This document shows, in pieces, positions 48,519 through 53,425 of a stretch of 64,000 nt of DNA. The number at the start of each line of letters is the position of its first letter. Positions within the stretch are counted from its first letter, which is position 1. The notes under the pieces are model-generated. The model saw only the letters and a program-made list of their open reading frames with translations, was not told where the DNA came from and made no database searches. The translations under genes were made by a program, and so were the position numbers. Source of the DNA: Tsukamurella conjunctivitidis (GTDB lineage Bacteria; Actinomycetota; Actinomycetes; Mycobacteriales; Mycobacteriaceae); assembly GCF_007858475.1 (NCBI RefSeq), contig NZ_VIGX01000002.1, positions 372,001 to 436,000 of the forward strand, given 5' to 3'.

Positions 48519-49817
48519 TCATTGCTGGTAGAGGCGGATCCGATCGTCGTCGGCGTCGTAGTCGTACAGTTCGCCGTATCGACCCCAGTCGATCGCCAGC
48601 CGCATCTGTCGTTCGGCGTCCTCCCGCCCGAAACCGCGCCGCAGCAGGTCCACGAAGAAGCCGAGCCGGGCGGCCCCGTCGGTGGACGCGCGCAGGGTCC
48701 GCAGGACGGTGCGGACCAGCGGGGCACGGGACGCGGCCTGGCGCGCGAAGACCTCTTTCGCGTCGCCGAGCGGAACCGTGACGAAGGTGCGGCCCTCCTC
48801 CGTCAGGGTGATCTCGTTCCCGGCCCCGTCGACCAGGCCCAGCATCGCCGCGGCGTCGACCAGCGGCATGATGTCGTCGACCTCGAAGTTGAGGTCCGCC
48901 GCGAGGTCTGGGAGGTCCGCGGGAGCGCCGTGCGCCGATACCAGCTCCACCAGTCCGGCGATCCCGTCGACGGTCGCGTCCGGCAGCGGACGGCTCACCG
49001 GCGTCGCCTCGACGGGGTCCGGCTCGTGCTCGATGTCGGCGGCGCGGCCCGTCAGCGCGCCGTACAGCTCGTCGACGATCGCCTCGAACGCCGGCGCCGT
49101 CCGCGACCGCGGCCGCGGGAGGTCGATCCGGGTCTCGTGGACGATGCGGCCCGGCTTGGCGCCGAGCACCACGACGCGGTCGGCGAGCAGCACCGCCTCC
49201 TCGATGTTGTGGGTGACGATGCAGACACTGCGGGTCGGGAATTCCGCGCGGCCCCAGAGCTCCGCCAACTCGCCGCGCAGGTTCTCGGCCGTCAGCACGT
49301 CCAGCGCGGAGAAGGGCTCGTCCATCAGCAGGAGGTCCGGCTCGAGCACGAGCGCACGGGCGAAGCCGACGCGCTGGCGCATCCCGCCCGACAGCTCACG
49401 CGGGTAGGCCGACTCGAAGCCGTCGAGCCCGATGGTGTCGATGGCCTTCAGGGCGCGGGCGCGCCGCTCGGCGCGGGGCACGTTCCGGGCCGTCAGGCCC
49501 AGCTCGACGTTGTCCTGGACGGTCAGCCAGGGCATGAGTGCGAAGGACTGGAAGACCATCGCGGCGGCGGGGTTGGGGCCGGACAGTGGCGCACCGTCGG
49601 ACTCGACGGTGCCGGACGTCGCCGGGATGAGCCCCGCCATGATCCGCAGGAGGGTGGACTTGCCCGATCCGGACCGTCCGAGCAGCGCGACGATCTCGCC
49701 CGGCTCGACCGTGAGGTCGATGCCGTCGAGCACCGTCAGGGTGTCGCCGTGGGCGCCCTCGAAGCTCTTGGTGAGCCCTTGCAGGCGGATCAGCGGGGTG
49801 GCGAGGGTGGTGGTCAT
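48519..49817 (-). CDS. ABC transporter ATPase with AAA-associated C-terminal domain
   Basis: The 432-residue protein is a NitT/TauT-type ATPase. Walker A is LLGRSGSGKST (about 45-55), the signature is LSGGMRQRV (about 143-151) and Walker B is LLLMDEP. Residues ~285-432 form the extra AAA-associated C-terminal domain found in a subset of these transporters, probably regulatory. AGGAG (minus strand) lies 7 bases before ATG 49817. It is the last gene of the mgtC-permease-ATPase run. No binding protein is encoded nearby, so the substrate is unknown. Confidence 0.87.
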   Translation of the reverse strand: MTTTLATPLIRLQGLTKSFEGAHGDTLTVLDGIDLTVEPGEIVALLGRSGSGKSTLLRIMAGLIPATSGTVESDGAPLSGPNPAAAMVFQSFALMPWLTVQDNVELGLTARNVPRAERRARALKAIDTIGLDGFESAYPRELSGGMRQRVGFARALVLEPDLLLMDEPFSALDVLTAENLRGELAELWGRAEFPTRSVCIVTHNIEEAVLLADRVVVLGAKPGRIVHETRIDLPRPRSRTAPAFEAIVDELYGALTGRAADIEHEPDPVEATPVSRPLPDATVDGIAGLVELVSAHGAPADLPDLAADLNFEVDDIMPLVDAAAMLGLVDGAGNEITLTEEGRTFVTVPLGDAKEVFARQAASRAPLVRTVLRTLRASTDGAARLGFFVDLLRRGFGREDAERQMRLAIDWGRYGELYDYDADDDRIRLYQQ

Positions 49818-49845: not shown

Positions 49846-51600
49846 CTAGAGGGAGTAGCGGCGCGCGGCCGTGCGGTACAGGCGGCGCCACAGGACCGCG
49901 TTGGTGCCCACGACGAACAGGCACATCACGACGATCCCGAGCAGTAGGTGGGCGGTGTGCTCGACGCCGGTCGCGGCGGTGGCCCGCGCGATGTAGTCGC
50001 CGAGACCGTACGCGTGGTGCTCCTCGCCGTTGTACGAGACGACCTCGGCCACGATCGAGGCGTTCCAGGCTCCGCCCGCGGCGGTGATCCCGCCGGTCAC
50101 GTAACCGGCGAAGACGCCCGGCAGCAGCACGGAGCGCCACTTCAGCAGTCGGGGGAGCCGCATGTCGTCGGCGGCCTCGAGCAGGTCGCCGGGGATCGCG
50201 CTGGCCGCGGCGATGACGTTGAACAGGATGTACCACTGCGTGCCGAGCGCCATCAGGACGACGCCGCCCAGATCCAGCGGAATGTTCCAGGCCACGAGGA
50301 CCGCGGTGACCAGGGGGAACAGGAAGTTCGCGGGGAAGCTCGCGCACACCTGGACGACGGGCTGCAGGGCGCGGCTGAGGCGCGGGTCGAGGCCCACGAT
50401 CACGCCGATCGGCACCCACACGACCGTGGCGACGATCATCACGACCGCGACGCGGGCCATCGTCGCGAGGCCCAGCAGGACGACGTGTCCCACCTCGGCG
50501 AGCCCCGCGTCGCGCAGGATCACCTCGAGCGCCCGCCACAGGCCGTACGCCACGACCGCCAGGACGACGGTGCCGAAAGCGAGGTCGCCGAGGCGGGCGC
50601 GGCGCGGGTCCGCGGGCGCGGTGTGCCCGGTGCGGCCCAGCGCGCCGAAGACCCGGTCGAGCCCCGTCACCACGGGCGCTGCCGCGCGCCGCAGCCCGTC
50701 ACCGACGTGCGAGCGGCGCAGCAGCGTCAGCACGGTGGACCGTGGGACGCGGCCGGTGGCGGAGTCCTCGAGGCGGAAGCGTTCGGCCCACGCCGTCAAC
50801 GGGCTCCAGAACAGCAGGTTCACCGCGATGATGACCACGATCATCGCGGCGATGGCCCAGCCGACGCGGCCGAGATCACCGTCGGCCGACGCGGTGGCGA
50901 CGTAGGCGCCGATGCCGGGGAGGGCGTACTCGTTACCGGCCACCGAGACGGCCTCCGAGGCGGTGAGGAAGAACCACCCGCCGCCGAAGCTCATCATCGC
51001 GTTCCAGACCAGCGGGATCATGCCGCTGGGCACGTCGAGTCGCCAGAATCGTTGCCAGCGTGACAGTCCCAGGTCGCGGGCGGCTTCGCCGAGCTCGCGC
51101 GGCTGGCTGATCAGACTCTGGTAGAAGGCGAAGGTCATGTTCCACGCCTGCGAGGTGAAGATGGCGAAGACCGCCGCGCACTCGAGTCCCAGCGTCGATC
51201 CCGGGAACAGTGCGAGGAAGACGGTGACCGTCACCGAGAGGAAGCCGAGGATCGGCACCGACTGCAGCACGTCGAGCAGCGGCAGCAGCACCGCCCGCGC
51301 CCGCCGCGACCGTGCCGCCAACAATGCGTAGCCGAAGGTGAAGACGACGGACGCCGCGAGCGCGAGGAACATGCGCAGCAGGGAGCGCAGCGCGTAGTAG
51401 GGCAGGTTCGACGGGTCGGTGTCGACACGGGCGGTGCTGTGCGCCAGGTCCATCGGCGCGTTCATGCCCTGCCCGACGCGGATCGTCAGCCAGATCAGCG
51501 CCGCCGCACCGGCGACCACGAGGACGTCGGCGACGATCGAGCGGCGGCCCTCGCGCTCGGTGCGGCGCCGGCCGAGCAGGGGAGCGGTCAGTGCGCTCAC
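49846..51600 (-). CDS. ABC transporter permease with two fused membrane domains
   Basis: The 584-residue protein contains two binding-protein-dependent permease domains in tandem (about 60-275 and 355-575). Each has the EAA cytoplasmic loop (GEAARDLGLSRWQRFWRLDVP near 190; LEAADDMRLPRLLKWRSVLLP near 485). One chain therefore supplies the whole channel. GTG 51600 overlaps the mgtC stop (GTGA), so it is translationally coupled to mgtC; the ATPase gene follows after 28 bases. Relatives are annotated as nitrate/sulfonate/taurine type, but the magnesium-riboswitch context argues for a different cargo. Confidence 0.85.
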   Translation of the reverse strand: MSALTAPLLGRRRTEREGRRSIVADVLVVAGAAALIWLTIRVGQGMNAPMDLAHSTARVDTDPSNLPYYALRSLLRMFLALAASVVFTFGYALLAARSRRARAVLLPLLDVLQSVPILGFLSVTVTVFLALFPGSTLGLECAAVFAIFTSQAWNMTFAFYQSLISQPRELGEAARDLGLSRWQRFWRLDVPSGMIPLVWNAMMSFGGGWFFLTASEAVSVAGNEYALPGIGAYVATASADGDLGRVGWAIAAMIVVIIAVNLLFWSPLTAWAERFRLEDSATGRVPRSTVLTLLRRSHVGDGLRRAAAPVVTGLDRVFGALGRTGHTAPADPRRARLGDLAFGTVVLAVVAYGLWRALEVILRDAGLAEVGHVVLLGLATMARVAVVMIVATVVWVPIGVIVGLDPRLSRALQPVVQVCASFPANFLFPLVTAVLVAWNIPLDLGGVVLMALGTQWYILFNVIAAASAIPGDLLEAADDMRLPRLLKWRSVLLPGVFAGYVTGGITAAGGAWNASIVAEVVSYNGEEHHAYGLGDYIARATAATGVEHTAHLLLGIVVMCLFVVGTNAVLWRRLYRTAARRYSL

Positions 51601-52319
51601 AGGTCCGCCTCCTCGCGCTCGGGCAGCACGTCCCAGCGCACCGCCGTCACCGACGGCTCCATGCTGAGCTGGCTGATCGCCGTCTCCAGGGCGCGGTCGT
51701 CGCGACCGTCCGCGGCGAGGGTGGCCCGTACCTCCACCCTGCCGTCGTCGGTGTCGACGCTGCTGATGGACTGCAGGTGGAAGACGGTGCGGCTCAACGC
51801 CTGGACCAGCATCACGCGGACGTGCGCCTCGTTCTCGTCGCGCGTCACGGCGACGAACTCGTACCGGCTCGGCGCCTCCTTCCCGTTGTCGGGTGCGCGG
51901 TCCACGGCGTGCCCGACCGACCGCAGGGCGGTGTTGACGCCGATCACGACGGCGGTGCCGATCGCGGCCGGGATGTACATCCCGGAGCCCGACAGCGCGC
52001 CGACGGCGGCCGAGCACCACAGCGTGGCGGCGGTGTTCAGGCCGCGCACGGTGAGGCCGTCGCGCAGGATCACGCCGCCGCCGAGGAAGCCGATGCCCGA
52101 GACGATCTGCGCCGCGACGCGCGTGGGATCGCCGCCGGCGAAGCCGTAGGCGGACAGGACGACGAAGAGCGCCGAGCCGACCGAGACCAGCGCATTGGTG
52201 CGCAGGCCGGCCATGCGGGCGCGGTACTGGCGCTCGAGTCCGATCAGGGTGCCGAAGCCGACGCCCGCCGCGATGCGCGGCAGCATGTCGAGCAGGTCGA
52301 TGTTCGTGGTGGCGTGCAT
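51597..52319 (-). CDS. mgtC: MgtC/SapB family protein
   Basis: The 240-residue protein has about five membrane segments in residues 1-135, with the MgtC signature GLERQYRARMAGLRTNALVSVGSALF and GIGFLGGGVILR. A C-terminal ACT-like cytoplasmic domain (about 150-235) follows. MgtC helps survival in low Mg2+ and inside macrophages, partly by inhibiting ATP synthase in Salmonella. GAGGGG lies 8 bases before ATG 52319. The gene has an unusually long leader (about 430 bases) that contains an M-box magnesium riboswitch, and is coupled to an ABC permease by a GTGA overlap. Confidence 0.93.
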   Translation of the reverse strand: MHATTNIDLLDMLPRIAAGVGFGTLIGLERQYRARMAGLRTNALVSVGSALFVVLSAYGFAGGDPTRVAAQIVSGIGFLGGGVILRDGLTVRGLNTAATLWCSAAVGALSGSGMYIPAAIGTAVVIGVNTALRSVGHAVDRAPDNGKEAPSRYEFVAVTRDENEAHVRVMLVQALSRTVFHLQSISSVDTDDGRVEVRATLAADGRDDRALETAISQLSMEPSVTAVRWDVLPEREEADL

Positions 52320-52417
52320 GGTGATTCCCCTCGTCCGGGCACGCGCTACTGCGCCGCGGCCCTGGGGGCGCGGCGGAGCAGGGTGTGGAGGTGTCAGTGG
52401 GGCACAGGCGAGGGCGG

Positions 52418-52437
52418 GCCGACGGTACGCCGTCGGC
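52418..52437 (-). other. Leader hairpin near mgtC
   Basis: GCCGACGG (52418-52425) and CCGTCGGC (52430-52437) form a perfect 8-bp stem with a 4-base loop inside the mgtC leader. It could form part of the riboswitch's expression platform or a late terminator. Confidence 0.5.
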
Positions 52438-52468
52438 TCACGGGCCTGCGGCCCGGATCATGGTGCGC

Positions 52469-52528
52469 TCAGCGGCTTCCCACGGCGATGTGGGAAGCGC
52501 CGAGCGTTCGACTACGGCCGTCGGGCAT
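52469..52528 (-). CDS. 19-residue ORF in the mgtC leader
   Basis: ATG 52528 is preceded by GGAGG (52540-52536) at a 7-base spacing, among the best ribosome sites in the window. The peptide is MPDGRSRTLGASHIAVGSR. Its last codons are inside a 9-bp hairpin (52475-52498), so ribosome position would decide whether the hairpin forms, as in leader-peptide attenuation. A second, overlapping ATG at 52533 opens a 31-residue Pro-containing frame but sits too close to the ribosome site. Whether either is translated is unknown. Confidence 0.5.
   Translation of the reverse strand: MPDGRSRTLGASHIAVGSR
52475..52498 (-). terminator. Possible attenuator hairpin in the mgtC leader
   Basis: GCTTCCCAC (52475-52483) and GTGGGAAGC (52490-52498) form a perfect 9-bp stem with a 6-base loop. 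The hairpin overlaps the end of the small leader ORF, between the M-box and mgtC. There is no T-tract, so it may work with Rho or by hiding sequences. Confidence 0.5.
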
Positions 52529-52637
52529 TGCATCACCTCCGTGGGTCGGCGTTCCGCGCGCCAGGACGGAGGGTGACGAAGCTGCGCCCCTCCACGTCAG
52601 ACCTTCAGCACTTCGCGGCGTGAACCCGTGAACGGGA

Positions 52638-52748
52638 GCCAATCGGGGAGCACCCTTAAGCCGGATGCGCCTGTCCTGACCCGGGGCGTCTCTCGACGTT
52701 CGGGGTCGCTGGCCTGTTTCCGCGAAGGAGCCTCAGCGAACGATTGGC
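52638..52748 (-). ncRNA. M-box (ykoK) magnesium riboswitch
   Basis: On the minus strand the conserved core is clear: TGAGGCTCCTTCGCGGAAAC, then an ACAGGCCAGCGACCCC stretch, GAACGTCGAGAGACG, and a GGGTCAGGACAGG stretch. This is the order and spacing of M-box RNAs such as that upstream of mycobacterial Rv1535. The ends pair perfectly as P1: GCCAATCG (52748-52741) with CGATTGGC (52645-52638). Mg2+ binding should fold the RNA and switch off the downstream mgtC-ABC operon. Confidence 0.88.
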
Positions 52749-52761
52749 GCCTTGCGCAACC

Positions 52762-52790
52762 AGCATGACACGGGGTCATCGACGGGGCAA
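52762..52790 (-). promoter_or_regulatory. Promoter of the M-box / mgtC transcript
   Basis: TTGCCC (52790-52785) and CATGCT (52767-52762) are separated by exactly 17 bases. Transcription would begin near 52755, a few bases before the first riboswitch stem. Confidence 0.6.
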
Positions 52791-52810
52791 GCCGAGTAGT
52801 GTGGCCCGCC

Positions 52811-53425
52811 ATGGAGGTACCGACGACCCGCCGGACCGGCGCGGCAGGGCCCGAGGCGGGGACGGCGCGGGAGCGCGCCAAGGCCGCCCGCCGCCGCGAA
52901 CTGCTCGCCGCGGCGGCGACGCTCATGGCCGAGCGCGGCTTCGCCGGCGTGCGCCTGGAAGACATCGGCGCGGCCGCGGGCGTCTCCGGTCCGGCCATGT
53001 ACCGCCACTTCGCGGGCAAGCAGGACGTGCTCGCCGCACTGCTGGTGGAGATCTCGGAGTACCTCTACGACGGTGGCCGCCGGGTGGCGGAGGAGCGCGC
53101 GGGGGATCCTCGGCAGGCGCTGCGCGACCTCGTCGACTTCCACGTCGATTTCGCGGCCTCGGAGCCCGACCTGATCCGGGTCCAGTACCGCGACATGTGG
53201 TCGCTGGCACCGGAATCGGCGCGCCGTGTGCGCCGGCTGCAGCGTCAGTACGTGGAGATCTGGACCGACGCCCTCACCGCGCTCGGCGGTGACCCGGTGG
53301 ACAATCGCGCCGTCGTGCACGCCGTCTTCGGCCTCATCAACGCCGCCCCGAGCCTCCCGGCGCTGCCGCAGCCCCGGCTCCGCGCGCTGCTGCGCGACAA
53401 GGCGCTCGCCGCGCTCGGCGTCTGA
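52811..53425 (+). CDS. TetR family regulator of the leucine catabolic operon
   Basis: The 204-residue protein has a TetR helix-turn-helix (about residues 25-75; LAAAATLMAERGFAGVRLEDIGAAAG, then GPAMYRHFAGKQDVLAALL). It is divergent from the mgtC leader and lies upstream of accD1-accA1-fadE19. A TetR gene (Rv2506) likewise accompanies the matching operon in M. tuberculosis. TAGTGT (52797-52802) lies 8 bases before ATG 52811, which is preferred to GTG 52799. A palindrome before accD1 (53536-53553) is a plausible target. Confidence 0.88.
   Translation: MEVPTTRRTGAAGPEAGTARERAKAARRRELLAAAATLMAERGFAGVRLEDIGAAAGVSGPAMYRHFAGKQDVLAALLVEISEYLYDGGRRVAEERAGDPRQALRDLVDFHVDFAASEPDLIRVQYRDMWSLAPESARRVRRLQRQYVEIWTDALTALGGDPVDNRAVVHAVFGLINAAPSLPALPQPRLRALLRDKALAALGV

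Follow-up and report, generated by a model that had tools for sequence, protein, structure and literature searches.

What does a short open reading frame do when it stands between a magnesium riboswitch and the gene that the riboswitch precedes? The question is raised by the mgtC leader in the window, the 64,000-nucleotide stretch of Tsukamurella conjunctivitidis DNA analyzed here (features in Table 1). A cmscan search matched Rfam family RF00380 on the minus strand over model positions 1-169 of 169 (109.2 bits against a gathering cut-off of 44 bits; E = 1.9e-23), which bears out a preliminary description of a minus-strand M-box with all conserved blocks in order. No second RF00380 match was detected in a whole-genome scan, and a divalent-metal gene, mgtC (PF02308), lies downstream; the aptamer is predicted to be a Mg2+-binding OFF switch. 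Some details of that description had to be revised: its span, 52469-52748, cuts off the 5' end of the aptamer and takes in the reading frame; the perfect 8-bp stem assigned to P1 (CUUCGCGG/CCGCGAAG) is an inner helix instead, while the closing P1 helix, as aligned by Rfam, is interrupted by two A.G mismatches; and the aptamer is separated from the mgtC ATG by 263 bases, rather than about 320.

Table 1. Positions of the elements of the mgtC leader and operon, numbered from the first letter of the window.
Feature	Position	Strand	Support or remark
Promoter-like pair: TTGCCC (52790-52785), 17 nt, CATGCT (52767-52762)	52762..52790	-	TGT before CATGCT
M-box (magnesium) riboswitch aptamer	52583..52751	-	RF00380, 109.2 bits, full length
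SD1 (GGAGGGG), P1 3' arm, proposed anti-anti-SD	52587..52593	-	4/7 bases paired within P1 (Rfam alignment)
Pyrimidine-rich candidate anti-SD (GUCACCCUCCGU)	52566..52577	-	Pairs SD2 in the MFE structure with P1 enforced
SD2 (GGAGGUGA) of the uORF	52533..52540	-	Letters identical in 15/15 genus leaders
uORF, 19 codons, ATG, MPDGRSRTLGASHIAVGSR	52469..52528	-	Same ORF in 15/15 genus loci
15-bp hairpin over second half of uORF, UGA stop in 3' arm	52468..52504	-	z -5.07
C-rich, G-poor stretch between uORF and mgtC, Rho-loading-site-like	52363..52440	-	C/G 2.28
mgtC, MgtC/SapB family, 240 aa	51597..52319	-	Pfam PF02308, E 9.6e-37; PF21770, E 1.3e-26
ABC transporter permease, overlaps the mgtC stop	49846..51600	-	Pfam PF00528, two BPD_transp_1 stretches
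ABC transporter ATPase, AAA_assoc_C domain	48519..49817	-	Pfam PF00005, PF09821

From the promoter-like pair and the spacing rule that we take to apply, transcription would presumably start near 52755. No promoter was found by a sigma-70 consensus scan, which did not call this pair; its blocks (TTGCC and TGTCATGCT) are largely conserved in the alignment of 15 genus leaders, being weaker in L009, L015, L016 and L017. Divergently oriented to the M-box leader, a TetR-family regulator (52799-53425, plus strand) starts next to the promoter-like blocks.

The existence of a 19-codon reading frame with an excellent ribosome site (the uORF hereafter) was confirmed: a strong Shine-Dalgarno sequence, GGAGGUGAUGCA, precedes it, and it recurs in the genus. 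M-boxes were found in 15 of the 16 Tsukamurella genomes, the window's own included; the one genome without a match is assembled in about 890 contigs. In all 15 mgtC-linked leaders the aptamer, which is highly conserved, SD2 and the uORF follow one another in the same order, with a valid start codon behind SD2 (14 ATG, one GTG). The peptide mostly begins MPDDS[RHP]S; the window copy, MPDGRSR, is three bases shorter and in frame. Searched for by its pattern, the uORF was found in 13 of the 16 genomes, each time as a single copy located at the M-box, and not at all in the other three (G000, G011, G014); a further copy away from the M-box was sought with the exact pattern, and none was found in the genus.

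The window MgtC shared best-segment identities of 76-95% with nine Tsukamurella loci, 65% with Nocardia panacis and 47% with a MAG; an M-box precedes mgtC in ten of these 11 loci (the nine Tsukamurella and the Nocardia). A simple pattern recovered the uORF in eight of the nine Tsukamurella loci, the ninth (L024) having the same SD followed by ATGTCGGACGACAGTC, while N. panacis (L027) has the M-box and mgtC but no such uORF. Two Tsukamurella genomes carry another M-box with a higher score (141 bits in one and 140 in the other; L128 and L129, at the same places as L002 and L003), whose uORF starts MPSGDSPYSR and so resembles the MSPGDSPY type found in other genera.

Beyond the genus, RF00380 was detected in 72 of 301 genomes and 18 of 31 genera of the family. 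The family and genus surveys together gave 116 leaders, which were screened by a mechanical rule (an SD 25-175 nt after the aptamer, a start codon, and an ORF of 5-70 codons). One hundred of them contained a uORF, 84 of these with an in-frame AGTC in the first 36 nt, against 1/30 TPP-riboswitch leaders of the same family (no in-frame AGTC) and 27/696 antisense windows (one in-frame AGTC). Of the 14 leaders from other families of the class, 13 passed, nine with in-frame AGTC; in the sole miss (L150) a stretch of N falls within the ORF. Among 27 unclipped leaders from the phylum's other classes eight passed, of which five look like members (L166, L170, L182, L191 and L192); when CTG starts were allowed and leaders were judged by eye, 14 of 30 had such an ORF, a hand-made and weaker count. 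The window uORF is the local representative of a leader ORF accompanying M-boxes in several families of the class.

In L183, L185, L186, L194 and L195, from another class, the uORF would start with CTG behind GGAGGTGAG. In L087, L104 and L105, AGTCC is followed by CATAGTCC, GATAGTCC or GACAGTCC, and ATT stands at the place of the start codon, where it may be a weak start or the trace of a lost ORF. Two pairs of M-boxes on opposite strands, L054 with L083 (G036:C12) and L063 with L086 (G077:C50), are divergent and about 230-245 bases apart.

This distribution shows that the uORF, conserved in frame far beyond one genus, is not specific to Mycobacterium, contrary to the statement in PMC12810186, where the peptide was called specific for mycobacteria and a role in the PE20-PPE31 complex was proposed; the main text of that paper does not mention Tsukamurella, Nocardia or Streptomyces. 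It was the only paper devoted to the M-box uORF among the matches listed by our search, which covered titles and the beginnings of abstracts with subscription literature mostly outside; for earlier evidence of uORF translation it cites D'Halluin et al. 2023.

The coding constraint on the uORF was analyzed in 101 family uORFs, selected by a rule that demands a start codon and not AGTC; as the sequences are related, the codon and residue counts given here and below are not independent events. Serine is encoded by the rare codon AGT (AGU) at 189 of 269 positions in codons 2-10 against 9 of 244 in codons 11-40, and at 10 of 347 in 24 mgtC genes from the same loci; tyrosine is TAT in 56/56 cases in codons 2-10, against 5/82 in those mgtC genes. 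AGTC occurs within the first 36 nt of 88/101 uORFs and 64/1010 background windows. In the first 48 nt it lies in frame 0 in 128 of 134 cases (5 and 1 in the other frames), at in-frame distances of 3 to 27 nt from the start. A motif tied in this manner to the reading frame supports translation of the uORF, and its tie to the codon goes beyond what selection on the peptide alone would require. Pairing of the first codons with the linker, the downstream region or the aptamer was considered as a cause, and swap tests over the 101 leaders gave p = 0.96, 0.60 and 0.56, with one of 18 group tests below 0.05 (the Myc group with the downstream region, p = 0.03); the idea of AGUC as half of a helix is therefore unsupported, and the motif is unexplained by pairing.

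The same data bear on whether the leader is a simple M-box transcription switch with a chance ORF, as the B. subtilis ykoK M-box, a member of the same aptamer family, might suggest, since it works through an intrinsic terminator (as stated in PMC12810186). In the window no terminator-like site was found in 52200-52900, and the valid start codon behind SD2 in every genus leader, together with the frame of AGTC family-wide, is at odds with a chance ORF, so that we regard this reading as scarcely credible.

Alternatively, the uORF might encode a small functional protein placed under M-box control, with any effect on mgtC incidental. The N-terminus is conserved, and M. tuberculosis has a homologue outside an M-box (PMC12810186); nevertheless, conservation fades after about codon 10, it is codons rather than residues that are constrained, as the AGT counts indicate, and in most Tsukamurella genomes the pattern stands once, at the M-box. 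The downstream genes also argue against it. They were identified by tblastn and from the ORFs of 26 chosen loci, ten of which were Pfam-scanned, the "first long ORF" having been discarded as unreliable in high-GC DNA. M-box leaders of the set precede MgtC (tblastn) and the unrelated P-type ATPase, Nramp and MgtE (Pfam, ten chosen loci), and double-permease ABC genes also stand after them (Pfam, tblastn). The leader ORF accompanies the switch and not one protein, and is thus more likely a regulatory part; we judge the protein reading to be improbable.

A double-permease ABC transporter follows the M-box with no MgtC match in L094, L114, L118 and L119, and with a partial match in L121; four of these five loci have a uORF by the start-codon rule, L119 being without. 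The permease and ATPase of the window (49846-51600, 48519-49817) may be viewed as a candidate Mg2+ or divalent-metal transporter; the literature search on this point listed nothing. The exact role of MgtC itself in Mg2+ transport is debated.

The window leader is real and conserved, and it is a relative of the very recently described pe20 kind. Likened in the preliminary description to the Salmonella mgtA/mgtC leaders, it has its closest relative instead in the M-box with uORF2/Rv1805A ahead of pe20 (rv1806) in M. tuberculosis, which was studied by experiment (PMC12810186, 2026): uORF translation, the anti-SD effect, Rho dependence and the Mg2+ response of the leader were all shown there. Expression of uORF2 rose about twofold when the anti-SD was deleted, and longer transcripts became more abundant when Rho was depleted. 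Both leaders have the aptamer, an SD1 at its end inside P1, a pyrimidine-rich tract (the anti-SD in pe20, a candidate one in the window) and a short SD2-led uORF with a conserved N-terminus, a canonical intrinsic terminator was found in neither, and both belong to operons that include mgtC. In pe20 mgtC lies at the operon end, whereas in the window it directly follows the leader and the ABC transporter trails. The window also differs in having no uORF1, there being no start codon at SD spacing behind SD1, and in the 15-bp hairpin over the uORF stop, seen only in Tsukamurella. Proline occupies position 7 in most pe20-type peptides and position 2 in the window uORF; the second Tsukamurella M-box peptide (MPSGDSP) has it at position 7.

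The SD1, anti-SD and SD2 elements were examined for the pairings that this layout predicts. SD1 is identical in 14 of 15 genus leaders and shares bases with P1, so that P1 and an SD1:anti-SD pairing are mutually exclusive. Cognate SD1:linker pairs outperformed swapped partners (0/5000 permutations reached them over 101 leaders; p = 0.02-0.04 in four of six groups); the same test was not significant for Tsukamurella only (p = 0.27) or for 19 representatives (p = 0.42), and SD1:linker duplexes were no stronger than dinucleotide shuffles (median p = 0.46; p < 0.05 in 4.0% of the 101 leaders). For SD2 the swap test gave nothing (p = 0.76 over all leaders), and duplex strength with the linker, tried as a marker, hardly exceeded chance in the shuffles (median p = 0.395; p < 0.05 in 14.9% of 101 leaders); the duplex of the window leader itself scored p = 0.01. 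With P1 enforced, SD2 accessibility was 0.00-0.32 in all 15 genus leaders, and in several of them, that of the window included, SD2 paired with the pyrimidine tract. When P1 was left open, accessibility was 0.00-0.39 and SD2 still mostly paired, so thermodynamic folding alone does not show a switch. Five leaders without a uORF (L052, L103, L115, L116 and L117) have the SD of mgtC itself at the place of SD2, which is what one would predict were SD2 the element under control. The case for a translational platform comes mainly from the layout shared with the pe20 M-box, by analogy with which control of uORF translation is likely; to be a target of the M-box through SD1, anti-SD and SD2 is probably the first job of the window uORF.

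The reading that we favor, and hold with reasonable though by no means full confidence, is that of a translational M-box OFF switch acting on the uORF, combined with factor-dependent attenuation ahead of the mgtC-ABC-transporter operon. With Mg2+ bound, P1 would be closed and SD1 held within it, leaving the pyrimidine-rich anti-SD to pair with SD2 and the uORF untranslated; a termination factor, most likely Rho, would then stop transcription of the bare C-rich leader, either upstream of mgtC or within it. At low Mg2+ P1 would open, SD1 would take up the anti-SD, and the freed SD2 would allow translation of the uORF, whose ribosome would melt the hairpin at the stop codon and let transcription reach mgtC. 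We infer both that the pe20-type working carries over to Tsukamurella and what the uORF ribosome would do to mgtC.

The proposed second stage was approached through the structures at and beyond the end of the uORF. A 9-bp hairpin had been described there; a hairpin is indeed present and is larger, with 15 pairs and one bulge (-26.2 kcal/mol; none of 200 dinucleotide shuffles was as stable). Because the UGA stop lies inside the 3' arm, a terminating ribosome must open it. Among 14 distinct genus sequences 12 had z <= -2.18 relative to dinucleotide shuffles, those of L008 and L015 folding no better than the shuffles. In the alignment, 83.4% of cells were paired against at most 50.8% when the structure was slid, five pairs were changed on both sides, and 3, 13, 18, 116 and 23 of 500 column shuffles reached the five observed measures, all with a structure taken from L001, a choice that favors this hairpin. 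As a family-wide feature the hairpin was rejected: in the stop-20 window Tsukamurella had a mean z of -3.40, whereas five other groups all stayed above -0.6. Also dropped was the idea that the sequence just downstream of the uORF stop pairs over a long range with the sequence just upstream of the mgtC SD (swap test, p = 0.22).

The C-rich stretch ranks at the 99.93rd percentile among 78-nt stretches of the 64-kb window. Its conservation is moderate, since in several relatives the highest such stretch is placed elsewhere, lying at or inside mgtC in L006, L014, L016 and L017. It starts beyond the uORF stop and would therefore stay exposed while the uORF is being translated, and in the relative whose transcript ends were mapped, most termination occurs before the uORF is reached (PMC12810186), where termination need not depend on uORF translation. 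Of the two-stage control first proposed for this leader, the Mg2+ sensor and the translated-looking ORF are supported, while attenuation by the hairpin at the uORF end is only a guess, given that five other groups did not show the hairpin and that no terminator-like site was found in the leader. The conserved uORF favors a second regulatory stage, whose mechanism we infer.

A different second stage would make the uORF itself a Mg2+ sensor, read by the ribosome and in series with the aptamer: an acidic and proline-containing N-terminus together with rare AGU codons would cause drop-off or early pausing of ribosomes at low Mg2+, as in E. coli MgtL, and the state of a hairpin over the remaining uORF would decide transcription of mgtC. 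In 84 distinct family N-termini, acidic residues occupy 104 of 420 places at positions 2-6 against 41 of 904 at positions 10-20, the reverse of basic residues (11/420 against 114/904). Two acidic residues adjacent or one apart ([DE].?[DE]) occur in residues 2-8 of 26/84 family peptides against 1/147 later windows, and in 8/14 peptides of other classes, whose ORFs were picked by eye, against 1/24. Starts such as MESDPG, MDSEPG and MDDDPR in other classes stand beside the destabilizing motif EPDP of MgtL (PMC11282234) and Asp2/Glu5 of mgtQ (PMC8092293). Moreover, in L166, from another class, an intrinsic terminator (a hairpin with z -2.84 and a tail of six U) precedes the uORF, an arrangement that L164 and L170 resemble by eye; the uORF is therefore more than the readout of a translational switch and needs no translational platform. 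A hairpin over the uORF of L166, L170 and L164 was unsupported (z -0.43, 1.02 and 1.38).

On the other side, the window copy has a single acidic residue near its start (MPDGRS) and so lacks the early acidic pair, although positions 2-6 hold two acidic residues in 13 of the 15 copies from the genus; the class's other families show no enrichment (3/60 at positions 2-6, with none in 10 of 12 peptides); and a uORF2-lacZ fusion was highly expressed (PMC12810186). This reading is built on sequence and we consider it rather unlikely, the translational switch with factor-dependent attenuation being our preferred account.

The enterobacterial leaders share with the window a short ORF beside Mg2+ genes (E. 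coli and Salmonella mgtL-mgtA, mgtM/mgtP-mgtC, and mgtQ). The mgtL and mgtQ ORFs have early acidic and proline residues, whereas the window copy has one early acidic residue, and no sequence relationship of the window uORF to the mgtL, mgtM/mgtP or mgtQ ORFs was seen; control by ribosome behavior, known from the enterobacterial leaders, would be common to both. To our knowledge, the Salmonella mgtA/mgtC and E. coli mgtL and mgtQ leaders have no M-box. The acidic and proline-rich N-terminus of the family uORF recalls the Mg2+-sensing leader peptide MgtL, as a resemblance and not as a test.

A more far-reaching idea, speculative and in our view doubtful, is that the M-boxes of Actinomycetota represent an old two-sensor unit, made of the aptamer and then a leader ORF with Mg2+-sensitive translation, an SD of GGAGGTG and an N-terminus rich in proline, in AGU-coded serine and, in many lineages, in Asp or Glu. 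If it were true, the transporter genes would be on only when RNA fold and ribosome both report low Mg2+, and the unit would be a convergent counterpart of the enterobacterial MgtL, built onto a riboswitch. The uORF is present behind M-boxes in other families of the class and in some leaders of other classes, and the metal-transport genes that follow are unrelated to one another. This turns a question about a mycobacterial small protein into one about a general part in the actinobacterial Mg2+ switch, for which the preference for AGU in frame and the acidic residues at the N-terminus offer concrete, testable handles. The company that this tiny gene keeps with the switch suggests that the cells may read magnesium twice, once by RNA and once by the ribosome.
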